64,000 nucleotides of DNA from Pseudomonadales bacterium (lineage in GTDB: Bacteria; Pseudomonadota; Gammaproteobacteria; Pseudomonadales; Azotimanducaceae): contig SKUB01000129.1 in NCBI GenBank assembly GCA_007122315.1, positions 1 through 64,000 on the forward strand, given 5' to 3'. Below are positions 51,472-54,204 of this stretch, one piece after another. Positions within the stretch are counted from its first letter, which is position 1. Each line of letters begins with the position of its first letter. Both the position numbers and the translations under genes were made by a program. The notes beneath the pieces were generated by a model. That model was given only the letters and a program-made list of their open reading frames with translations. It did no database searches and had not been told where the DNA came from.

Positions 51472-52359
51472 ATGCGGATGGAACCTGCGAGCGAGCGCGC
51501 CCTGCTGTTCGCCATGCGCGGCGTGTTGACCGCTGCACGGGCTTTGCCGTTGAGTTGGTCGCGCAGCATCGGCCGCGGCGGTGGCCGCTTCGTGGCCGGC
51601 ATGGGCAGCGACACCTTCGAGGTCATCTGCCGCAATCTGGCGCTGGCGTTTCCGGATCTGGACGCCAGCGCCCGCCTCGCCCTGGCCCGTCGCAGCGCCA
51701 TGGAAGCCGGGGCGCTCCTCTCGGAGCTCGGACTCCTCTGGCAGGCGCCCGTGGAACACGCCCTCGCCGCCGTGCGCAACGTCGAAGGTGCCCGCCTGCT
51801 GGAGGCGGATCGGGGCTGCCTCCTGCTCGGCCCCCACGTCGGCAACTGGGAGTTGCTGAATCACTGGGTGGCGCGGCGAATGCCGTTCACGGTGCTGTTC
51901 GACCCTGAAGGACCGCCGCAGCTGATGGCCTGGCTGCGGCAGCGCCGCGCCCGCAGCGGGGCGCGTCTGCATCCCCTCGGCCCGGGTGGACTGAGGGCGG
52001 CTCTGGCAGCGCTCCGGGCGGGGGAAGCCGTGGGGTTGCTGCCGGACCAGGTTCCCTCCCGGGACGCAGGCGTCCACGTACCCTTCTTCGGTGCCCCGGC
52101 GCTGACCATGACGCTGGTCCAGCGTCTGCTGCGAAGAAGTGGTGCCCGGGCCGTGTTCGCGGTGGCGGCGCGGGTGGACGGTGGCTTCGACCTGCGCTTC
52201 ACTGCGGCGGAGGGCATCGACGTCAGCGACTCAGAGGTCGCAGCCCGGGCGCTCAACGCGGGCATCGAGGACTGTGTCCGCCCGCTGCTGCCCCAGTACC
52301 TCTGGGCCTACAAGCGTTACAAGCGGCCCCCTCCGGGAAGGCCCGACCCGTATCGGTGA
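51472..52359 (+). CDS. Lipid A acyltransferase, LpxL/HtrB-like
   Basis: Adds a secondary acyl chain to lipid A, or to a related lipid. The 295-residue protein has the LpxL-type catalytic HxxxxE (LGPHVGNWE), the LLPDQVPSRDAG motif and VPFFG. A weak N-terminal hydrophobic segment is present. It begins two bases after the tag stop, and its TGA stop lies at the start of the first 140-bp repeat. Which acyl chain it transfers cannot be told. Confidence 0.87.
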   Translation: MRMEPASERALLFAMRGVLTAARALPLSWSRSIGRGGGRFVAGMGSDTFEVICRNLALAFPDLDASARLALARRSAMEAGALLSELGLLWQAPVEHALAAVRNVEGARLLEADRGCLLLGPHVGNWELLNHWVARRMPFTVLFDPEGPPQLMAWLRQRRARSGARLHPLGPGGLRAALAALRAGEAVGLLPDQVPSRDAGVHVPFFGAPALTMTLVQRLLRRSGARAVFAVAARVDGGFDLRFTAAEGIDVSDSEVAARALNAGIEDCVRPLLPQYLWAYKRYKRPPPGRPDPYR

Positions 52360-52495
52360 GGCGCCGCGTTCAGCAGTCGCTTCGTAACTGAGGTCGTCGC
52401 CGCCGTCCCTGACGGGATGCTGCGTTTCTTTTGGCCCCCTGCCCGGCCGTCCATGGCCGGGCGTTCGCCCCACCGCCGAGTGCCACCGGCACTCG
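52356..52495 (+). repeat. 140-bp direct repeat, copy 1
   Basis: 140 bases that recur at 52602-52741 with five mismatches (135/140 identical). The copy starts at the stop codon of the lpxL-type gene. It holds a hairpin GCCCGGCC-GTCCAT-GGCCGGGC and ends with CGAGTGCC-ACC-GGCACTCG. The 396-base gap between the two genes (52360-52755) consists only of this repeat pair and a 106-base spacer, which contains a further partial match and its own GC-rich hairpin (GCCGGGGC/GCCCCGGC). Confidence 0.9.
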
Positions 52496-52601
52496 CTTCG
52501 AAAGCGGACTCATCGCTGCCGTCCCTGGCGCATCGCTCAGCTCCTCTTCACCCCCAGGGCTCGCTTCAACGCCGGGGCGCAGAGGCCCCGGCTGCTCGCC
52601 C

Positions 52602-52741
52602 GTGAGGCGCCGCATTCAGCCGTCGCTTCGTAACTGAGGTTGTCGCCGCCGTCCCTGGCGGGATGCTGCGCTTCTTTTGGCCCCCTGCCCGGCCGTCCAT
52701 GGCCGGGCGTTCGCCCCACCGCCGAGTGCCACCGGCACTCG
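52602..52741 (+). repeat. 140-bp direct repeat, copy 2
   Basis: Second copy, in the same orientation, 246 bases downstream of copy 1 (start to start). It ends 15 bases before the trkH stop, so it lies 3' to trkH on the opposite strand. The five differences fall in its first 70 bases; the hairpin-bearing part is identical in both. Confidence 0.9.
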
Positions 52742-52755
52742 GCAAACGGCGGGGC

Positions 52756-54204
52756 TCACCCACGCCAGAACGCGGGGGTGATGAGCACCAGGATCGTGAA
52801 TACTTCCAGCCGTCCGAGCAGCATGGCGATGCACAGGAGCCACTTTGCTGCACCCGGGATATCGCCGTAGTGAGCGGCCACTTCGCCCAGGCCTGGGCCA
52901 AGGTTCGTCAGGCAGGCGCCCACCGCCGAGAAGGCGGTGAGGAAATCGAGACCGGTGGCCAGCAGGCCCACCATGATCATCATGAAGGCCACGACCCAAG
53001 CCGAGAAGAAGCCCCAGATCGCATCCACCACCCGGTCCGGCACCACCGCCGAGCCGAGCTTCACCGGAATCACCGAGTGCGGGTGGATCAGGCGGCGGAC
53101 CTCCCGCAGACCCTGAAGGATGATCAGCAGCACCCGGACCACCTTGAGTCCGCCGCCGGTGGACCCGGCACACGCGCCGGTAAAGGCGGCGAAGAAGATC
53201 AGAAATGGCAGGACACCGGGCCAGGCGCTGAACTCGGTGGTGGTGAACCCGGTGGTCGTGGCGATCGACACGGTCTGGAACACGCCGTCGCGCCATGCCT
53301 CCCCCCGGTCCGCACCGGTCGTCGACAGCAGCAGGGCGACGGTGATCGCCGCGATTCCCGCGAGCAGTGCTACGTAGGCGCGCGCTTCGACGTCGCGCAG
53401 GTAAAGCCAAGGGGCGCGACGATTCCAAACAGCAAAATGAAGCCCAAAGTTGATGCCGCAAAGAACCATGAACACGATGGCAACCGATTCGATGGCGGCA
53501 GAATCGAAGTGCCCCATCGAGGCATCGTAGGTCGAGTAACCGCCGATGCTCACCGTAGAGAAGCTGTGGGCGAGCGCATCGAACGGCGACATGCCCGCGG
53601 CCCAGAAGCCGAATGCGCAGGCTGTGGTGAGTCCCAGGTAGATGTACCACAGGGCCTTGGCCGTCTCGGCGATGCGCGGCGTGAGCTTGGTGTCCTTCAC
53701 CGGCCCGGGCATCTCGGTCCGGTAGAGCTGCATGCCGCCCACCCCCAGCATGGGGAGGATGGCGATGGCCAGGATGATGATGCCCATGCCCCCGAGCCAC
53801 TGCAGCTGCTGGCGGTAGATCAGGATGGATCGCGGCAGATCGTCGAGGCCGGTGGCTACTGTCGCGCCGGTGGTGGTGAGACCGGAGAAGGACTCGAACG
53901 CCGCGTCGGTAAAGCTCGCCCATGCCCCCGCCTCCAGCCACAGCGGCAGCGCGCCGAACAGGCCCAGGGACAGGTAGAACACCGCGGTCACCAGAAAGCC
54001 CTCGCGAATGCGCAGTTCCTGGCGCGTACGGGCGACAGGCAGCCAGGCAAGCAGCCCGCCGGCGAACGTGAGGCCGAACGCGGCGAGGAACACGTACGCG
54101 GTGGCTTCCCCGTAGTACCAGCTGAACGGCAGCGGCGTCAGCATGGTGAAGCTGAACAGCATCAGCAGCAGACCGGCGATCCGCAGAACGGCGCTCAAAT
54201 GCAT
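52756..54204 (-). CDS. trkH: Trk potassium uptake channel TrkH
   Basis: Membrane channel of the K+ uptake system. The 482-residue protein has about 10-12 membrane segments and four selectivity-filter repeats, visible as SGLTTTGATV, STVSIGGYS, ATTTGFTTT and SAVGACLTNLG. Works with the cytoplasmic NAD+-binding regulator TrkA, whose gene lies 25 bases upstream. The next gene 3' of it is separated by the repeat pair. In Pseudomonas the gene after trkA differs (not searched). Confidence 0.94.
   Translation of the reverse strand: MHLSAVLRIAGLLLMLFSFTMLTPLPFSWYYGEATAYVFLAAFGLTFAGGLLAWLPVARTRQELRIREGFLVTAVFYLSLGLFGALPLWLEAGAWASFTDAAFESFSGLTTTGATVATGLDDLPRSILIYRQQLQWLGGMGIIILAIAILPMLGVGGMQLYRTEMPGPVKDTKLTPRIAETAKALWYIYLGLTTACAFGFWAAGMSPFDALAHSFSTVSIGGYSTYDASMGHFDSAAIESVAIVFMVLCGINFGLHFAVWNRRAPWLYLRDVEARAYVALLAGIAAITVALLLSTTGADRGEAWRDGVFQTVSIATTTGFTTTEFSAWPGVLPFLIFFAAFTGACAGSTGGGLKVVRVLLIILQGLREVRRLIHPHSVIPVKLGSAVVPDRVVDAIWGFFSAWVVAFMMIMVGLLATGLDFLTAFSAVGACLTNLGPGLGEVAAHYGDIPGAAKWLLCIAMLLGRLEVFTILVLITPAFWRG

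Follow-up and report, generated by a model that had tools for sequence, protein, structure and literature searches.

Repeats between convergent trkH and lpxL-type genes as members of a dispersed, apparently mobile family of non-coding hairpin elements

What fills the gap between two convergent genes in this Pseudomonadales genome, and did it arise in place or come from elsewhere? Within the window (the whole 64,000-nt stretch of DNA that was analysed), an lpxL-type gene (Lip_A_acyltrans, PF03279, 9.9e-42) and trkH (TrkH, PF02386, 2.5e-87) face each other, and a repeat region occupies the space between them. The first-pass annotation had described a pair of 140-bp direct repeats, 96% identical and separated by a 106-base spacer holding a further partial match, and had proposed either a mobile REP/MITE-like repeat or a duplicated terminator of the convergent genes. 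The pair was recovered as one direct-repeat family, with starts 246 nt apart. The two copies agree at 135 of 140 positions and differ at positions 13, 20, 40, 57, and 70 of the repeat. The hairpin GCCCGGCCGTCCATGGCCGGGC occurs twice in the window and in none of 100 shuffles when up to 3 mismatches were allowed.

The partial match in the spacer proved to be a divergent third unit, B, which is 86% identical over 102 nt to another place in the same genome (G000:C22:219-320; G000 is the window's own genome). The region consists of three family members, A2, B, and A1, all in the direction of trkH (Table 1). Some details of the earlier description had to be redrawn. The left edge of A1, said to start exactly at the lpxL-type stop codon, lies one base ahead of it, and the 140-bp repeat ends close to the trkH stop as described, but the A2 unit runs on through a further helix, P1, up to the G immediately before that stop codon. 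The half of the repeat called perfectly conserved is identical where P2 and the next hairpin lie, but P3 of A1 contains a mismatch.

Table 1. Features of the repeat region between trkH and the lpxL-type gene (positions in the window; loops in square brackets; the dot in a stop context precedes the stop codon).
Feature	Position	Strand	Description
Unit A1	52356-52495	-	P2, P3, and inner P1 hairpin; abuts the opposite-strand lpxL-type stop; model match 52396-52474, 77.8 bits
Unit B (spacer between the 140-bp copies, 106 nt)	52496-52601	-	divergent family member, no P1 of its own here; model match 52512-52570, 31.7 bits
Central G+C hairpin of unit B	about 52572-52591	-	
Unit A2	52602-52759	-	complete, downstream of trkH; 140-bp repeat 52602-52741 plus P1; model match 52642-52720, 76.5 bits
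P1 of A2	52709-52759	-	GTGAG...CGAAC helix with tandem G-A, encloses hairpin GCCGAGTGCC-GGT-GGCACTCGGC; TGA is the trkH stop; from fold and arm pairing
P2 of A2	52687-52708	-	GCCCGGCC[ATGGAC]GGCCGGGC
P3 of A2	52646-52661	-	CCGCC[AGGGAC]GGCGG; from hairpin scan, the minimum-energy fold pairs this stretch otherwise
P2 of A1	52441-52462	-	GCCCGGCC[ATGGAC]GGCCGGGC
P3 of A1	52400-52415	-	CCGTC[AGGGAC]GGCGG, one G-T pair; from hairpin scan
P3 of B	52518-52529	-	GCC[AGGGAC]GGC; pattern match on the + strand
lpxL-type stop codon	52357-52359	+	context CGG·TGAG
trkH stop codon	52756-52758	-	context GGG·TGAG, the 5' end of A2; last residue Gly

Read in the sense of trkH, a complete unit is a non-coding element of about 100-155 bp that begins with P1 and continues with P2 and P3, two hairpins with ANGGAY-type loops. 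P1 opens with GTGAG (or GTTCG) and closes with CGAAC, and GTGAG pairs with CGAAC through a tandem G-A. In A2, the P1 helix GTGAGCCCCGCC...GGTGGGGCGAAC surrounds its hairpin and is followed by P2, a purine-rich linker, and P3; the TGA of the trkH stop sits in the GTGAG of P1, opposite CGAAC across two G-A mismatches. Folding of the copy, which the first-pass annotation had suggested as a check, gave -73.8 kcal/mol for A2 with P1 as trkH-sense RNA (z -4.23), a value equalled by none of 200 shuffles. The isolated 140-bp copies fold less strikingly (z -1.76 to -4.17 over both strands of both copies), and the plus strand of the spacer alone showed no notable fold (z +0.38). The case for P3 comes from comparing units, because its stretch takes part in other pairings in the minimum-energy fold.

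A covariance model of P2-P3 (R1) was built from 11 seeds and used at E ≤ 0.05. It matched 31 of 97 genomes of relatives, with 7 places in the own genome, 9 in G005, 7 in G052, and 6 in G010. Over 50 sources R1 gave 64 matches, from which the weakest three were dropped, so that the counts below use 61. With the whole copy as a BLAST query, the full 140 bp was found nowhere else in the own genome (3.99 Mb in 396 contigs), and the other match was one of 38 nt at 92% beside nusG on contig C379; the purely local duplication that this result had suggested was overturned by splitting the query and by searching the relatives. The earlier expectation of dispersed copies therefore held for the sub-elements and the relatives, but not for the full-length copy in the own genome.

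Eleven of the 97 relatives were matched by BLAST of the copy at E ≤ 0.01, the best match being a single copy, 79% identical, in the orthologous trkH-lpxL gap of G003 (REEU01000186.1). R1 likewise matches this gap once (L095): it holds one A and no B. At the other trkH loci of the same group (L096-L099) there was no R1 match, and the gap sequence was unrelated or absent. Because one copy stands in the gap of G003 and none in the others, the A-B-A arrangement of the window arose later, from a single A. Elsewhere in the family, units are often duplicated in tandem (L246, L249, L260, L295).

Phage or plasmid cargo was considered and rejected. The phage sequences gave no family match, an exact pattern had 0 matches among viral sequences, and blastn against 72,556 plasmid records found the family in one of them, the complete Xanthomonas sacchari plasmid NZ_CP010410.1. 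This plasmid carries a tandem array of four units, three of them strong and one weak (66.4, 61.3, 56.0, and 23.9 bits), the sole R1 places in its 508,653 bases, located directly after a gene for a carbohydrate ABC transporter permease that ends in Gly-TGA. In many cases a unit is no further than about 300 bp from a contig end (both ends of G005:C328, the end of G005:C53, G004:C195, G010:C5, G022:C211, and G035:C110), and the copy numbers in draft genomes are therefore probably too low. A second dispersed repeat of the own genome, GCGCCATCC(A/C)TGGCGCGCACCCC...GGGGCGCAC, was seen at G000:C51:4000, C269:6784, C283:48261, C24:38, and C389:378, near a contig end at four of these five places (C24, C51, C269, C389); on the other strand, the loop of its hairpin likewise reads NGGA.

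The P1 arms were scanned in 64 units, namely the 61 matches and three units of X. sacchari. Twenty had UGAG/CGAA arms with the tandem G-A, and two had UUCG/CGAA. No arms were found in 42 of the 64 units with a scan reaching up to 75 nt upstream, in part because inner tandem copies lack P1 or because the scan ended at that distance. Among the 20, the pairs adjoining UGAG/CGAA differ by locus (for example CACCGCC/GGCGGTG, GTAGG/CCTAC, CAAGA/TCTTG, CGAC/GTCG), which supports the P1 helix as real. Covariation in the 79-nt alignment of the 11 seeds was weak, with two pairs changed on both sides and 20 of 500 shuffles as good.

At 17 of 47 loci, ARAGORN placed a tRNA gene no more than 120 nt from a unit. 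At five of them (L251, L252, L262, L283, and L285), the order is a 5' piece of the tRNA, the unit, and then the same piece continuing as the whole tRNA; the repeated pieces measure 17, 11, 19, 26, and 21 nt, respectively, and stop at the GG of the D-loop except at L251, where the end lies close to it, and at L252, where it lies at the base of the D-arm. At L279 and L284, the repeated stretch measures 26 and 32 nt and reaches the loop of a terminator-like hairpin, AACCGCCGGCCTGG·AGAGGAAGCCGGCGGTT. Another unit (L255) is located antisense in the apex of a 5S rRNA, with a 28-nt repeat further away, and five (L263, L264, L286, L292, and L293) lie in the T-arm of tRNA-Gly, in arrays.

Under the distance limits applied, an exact flanking repeat of at least 11 nt was present at 16 of the 61 matches and at 1 of 342 random placements; for repeats of at least 15 nt the numbers were 14 and 0. 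The 16 comprise eight tandem copies of the element, one tRNA-Gly array, and seven target duplicates of 11-32 nt, two of which (L279, L284) are also within tandem arrays. Direct repeats of the target flanking the element, a criterion for transposable elements, were found at these seven sites, with some room for a tandem-gene origin: a tRNA fragment could instead be the relic of a tandem tRNA gene that mimics a target duplicate.

Gene ends are another site. An open reading frame of at least 90 codons, ending between -5 and 90 nt ahead of the match, was found for 22 of the 61 matches, and in 15 of the 22 it was coding-like and ended in Gly-TGA. Such ends occur in 44 of 736 predicted genes of three genomes (6%), a baseline from greedy ORF calls in which some real genes were lost. 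The stop context of the 15 is GGG·TGAG in 13 cases, GGC·TGAG at L040, and GGG·TGATG at L294; the genes are nusG (3), trkH (2), nqrF-like (4), DUF2333 (1), MoaA-like (2), S49 peptidase (1), and two without a Pfam family. Outside this rule are seven matches, of which unit B of the window follows Gly-TGA in a non-coding-like frame and six follow frames that end otherwise. GTGAG also opens units away from stop codons, as at the tRNA sites L251 and L262, and we therefore infer that the element itself carries the TGA, which also acts as the stop.

The nusG genes offered occupied and empty sites for comparison. Among 30 nusG loci, of which 28 had a readable gene end, R1 matched three (G000, G003, and G005). 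The distance from nusG to rplK with a unit was 307 and 313 nt, with G005 running to the contig end, and it was 59-187 nt at loci where rplK was found and neither a model match nor a repeat remnant was present. The two exceptions with no model match, G004 (191 nt) and G002 (308 nt), both retain TGAGCACC/TGAGCCCC starts. In the G002 gap (L304), the start of P1 is kept, the remainder of the unit is missing, and other repeats beginning with GTGGGAAGCGGC come next. Most unit-free nusG genes likewise end in a Gly codon, followed by any of the three stops. From the shorter unit-free gaps and these Gly ends it follows that the unit was added where a Gly-stop end already existed. A strict rule placing units in 3'UTRs in the sense direction was contradicted by a G010 array with hairpins in both orientations and by units located ahead of tRNA genes.

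We consider that the region belongs to a REP-like family that is dispersed, non-coding, and apparently mobile, that provides a stop codon within P1, and that inserts after GG with copying of the upstream target, and we give this reading a probability of roughly two in three. Units would insert after GG, often in sequence able to form a hairpin, and each insertion would copy 11-32 nt or more of the upstream target. A tRNA or terminator could then stay whole because its upstream part has been copied, and insertion at a last Gly codon could be harmless because the TGA in GTGAG would serve as the stop. Once transcribed, the units would form a strong hairpin cluster at the 3' end that may stabilise the end of the mRNA; that their GGA loops may bind CsrA/RsmA is the least certain step.

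For the 140-bp pair itself, two origins may be envisaged: insertion of B with a target duplication of unusual length, or a tandem duplication of A and B that lost one B. In numbers, A2-B-A1 corresponds to a 140-bp target duplicated around B, or to a 246-bp tandem unit present 1.57 times. On its left, the duplicated block has its edge (52356) at the opposite-strand GG·TGAG of the lpxL stop, like edges elsewhere. We make no choice between the two, because 140 nt exceeds the clear target duplicates and because tandem duplication is common; the length is far above their 11-32 nt and also above the 55 nt of the tRNA-Gly arrays.

Other explanations of the region were weighed against this reading. 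A terminator of convergent genes, duplicated locally, would suit a strongly folded region that fills the gap between two such genes. However, the stretch 52250-52850 holds 0 intrinsic terminator-like sites (a G+C hairpin followed by a T run; mean of 0.4 in shuffles), related units lie between nusG and rplK, at tRNA genes, and in front of genes, and the corresponding gaps at L096-L099 lack the element, so that this second proposal of the first-pass annotation appears highly improbable. Its mobile alternative fared better: a dispersed, apparently mobile, non-coding repeat that favours gene 3' ends was found, and it behaves in the manner of REP/MITE elements, but membership of the REPs was not borne out, as there is no link to RAYT. 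A classical REP/BIME element spread by a RAYT would account for the tandem clusters, the short palindromes at gene 3' ends, and the stop codon supplied by a terminal tag, as the accessible part of PMC3733652 describes for GTAG REPs, which supply TAG, and the own genome has one Y1_Tnp match. RAYT (PF01797) is present in 68 of the 97 genomes; yet 22 of the 31 unit-bearing genomes and 46 of the 66 unit-free genomes have it, leaving nine unit-bearing genomes with no RAYT match, and none of 10 RAYT loci holds a unit. The units also measure 100-155 bp, with three hairpins, flanking duplicates, and a tag that is paired rather than unpaired. We judge RAYT-driven spread improbable. For REPs, the part of PMC2817692 available gives a copy number above 100 per genome; R1 found 7 places at E ≤ 0.05 in the own genome, but this count comes from a 396-contig assembly with many units at contig ends. 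The sole Y1 transposase match of the own genome (L090, G000:C190) lies amid direct repeats of the CACAATTGGGGTCGGACCAATTCAAGTCAT type.

A reverse transcriptase as the mover was also rejected, since over the 97 genomes, of which 25 carry PF00078, the enzyme shows no association with the units (6 of 31 unit-bearing and 19 of 66 unit-free genomes). With neither RAYT nor reverse transcriptase tracking the family, the elements might have no dedicated mobility: replication would stall at hairpins, and template switching would copy the element into other hairpins while duplicating the upstream DNA. The variable length of the duplicates and the position of one edge in a hairpin arm or loop are in line with this, but template switching alone fails to explain why one element with the order P1-P2-P3 is the one copied, and we hold it to be unlikely. 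Equally unlikely, in our estimate, is the most far-reaching extension of the preferred reading, a new class of mobile element that would possibly be copied through RNA or single-stranded DNA, insert after GG in the loops and arms of structured RNA genes and at last Gly codons, duplicate the upstream half of its target and so keep the gene intact, carry its own stop in a tandem G-A helix, and tie its copies to a global regulator through paired CsrA-type GGA hairpins.

It is also conceivable that the units are RNA elements selected as CsrA/RsmA sites, as 3' hairpin clusters that would regulate the host mRNA or act as sponges, and that this function drives or keeps their spread. We regard this as possible but doubtful. 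CsrA/RsmE sites are characterised by the SELEX sequence RUACARGGAUGU and the ANGGAN hexaloop in the part of PMC7652899 consulted, and csrA is present in 37 of 38 genomes, with two matches in the own genome. The loops of P2 and P3 are ANGGAN/NGGA, with a variable N and a fixed GGA that is invariant in both loops of the 11 seeds. Since N may be A, C, G, or T, which breaks the palindrome while GGA stays, a palindromic DNA-binding site is disfavoured. Among the 61 matches, 44 have a P2 hairpin with a stem of at least 5 pairs, and 35 of these carry a GGA loop, over 19 different arms; however, GGA is present in the best P3 hairpin of only 30 of the 61, and R1 was trained on GGA loops and its matches are therefore biased toward them.

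The pattern CGGCCANNNNTGGCCG, with fixed stem and free loop, was searched in 81 genomes of the family and matched in 42; NGGA occurs in 22 of the 75 matches listed, against about 2.3 expected. The stem itself is not enriched, because a reversed control pattern matched about as often overall. In G010, ANGGAY hairpins were the commonest of 64 analogue loops (25 against a mean of 1.42), in dense arrays with many stems, within a 400-kb sample of which 40 kb (630-670 kb) had been chosen for known matches. Against a selected function, the own genome is not rich in ANGGAY outside the locus (2 in 361 kb; analogue mean 0.58), G041 had 1, the stretches of G043, G039, G065, and G088 had 0 each, and the hairpins within one G010 array face both ways. 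The very stable stems of the units could also be an obstacle, as such stems may hinder CsrA binding according to the portion of PMC7652899 seen. From their sequence, then, the resemblance of the GGA loops to CsrA/RsmA sites is suggestive and marks candidate binding sites; it is a safer guess that the units act in a general way, as a strong cluster of hairpins where the mRNA ends.

Hairpins with ANGGAY loops and many different stems form arrays at L184 (8100-9650; G010:C1:638.1-639.65 kb), where orientation is mixed, and at L175 and L183. We take these arrays to lie between PPIase-like and glutamate dehydrogenase-like genes, 3' of an isocitrate lyase-like gene, and next to an RND-type gene. A perfect 10-bp hairpin, TGCGGGCGCC[AGGGAC]GGCGCCCGCA, is located at G000:C152:11125-11150, presumably just past the end of an isocitrate lyase gene, whose copy in G010 would also be followed by a GGA array.

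If the preferred reading of a mobile REP-like family holds, a large gammaproteobacterial family of intergenic repeats would gain a definable structure and a precise target rule (Gly-TGA ends and tRNA arms). Datable insertions with intact empty sites would then make it directly testable how REP-like repeats move and why they lie at gene ends. Should the GGA loops bind CsrA, mobile repeats would rewire or titrate a global regulator.

A search of part of the open-access literature found no description of this element family, and the known systems nearest to it were compared with the units. MITEs and other non-autonomous transposons are likewise small, non-coding, and associated with target duplicates, which are apparent in the units, but the duplicates of the units vary from 11 to 32 nt at the seven sites, and neither terminal inverted repeats of a known transposon nor a parent element was found. 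The TwoAYGGAY motif consists of two hairpins with AYGGAY loops. It is listed as an RNA motif for Gammaproteobacteria in the accessible part of PMC2864571, which describes neither its targets nor a P1; Rfam gave no match for positions 52000-53000 up to E 5 except a chance mir-1231, and for seven loci it gave one tRNA only. CsrB/RsmZ-type RNAs and CsrA sites, as far as covered by the text of PMC7652899 at hand, share the presence of several ANGGA-loop hairpins, but the units are dispersed and attached to other genes, with no Rfam match and no promoter-like site in the part of the window examined. The TAACTGA intergenic repeats of Beggiatoaceae are also abundant, and CsrA binding was considered for them; it was rejected there for lack of GGA, and their sequence and structure differ (available part of PMC4679880).

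The closest precedent is provided by the GTAG/CGTC REPs and the Rickettsia RPEs, which, in the section of PMC3733652 available, are short palindromic intergenic repeats in Gammaproteobacteria with clusters and a stop-supplying tag. The same source describes a palindrome of 20-40 bp whose GTAG or CGTC tag, at its foot, is left unpaired, and GTAG REPs whose ends often supply the stop codon to open reading frames. Compared with these descriptions, the units are longer, have GGA loops, pair their GTGAG/GTTCG tag with CGAAC, and sit in tRNA, 5S, and terminator hairpins with flanking duplicates and no RAYT link found. We therefore place them as kin to the known REP-like dispersed hairpin repeats, as a new variant that differs in size, paired tag, tRNA sites, and the lack of a RAYT link.
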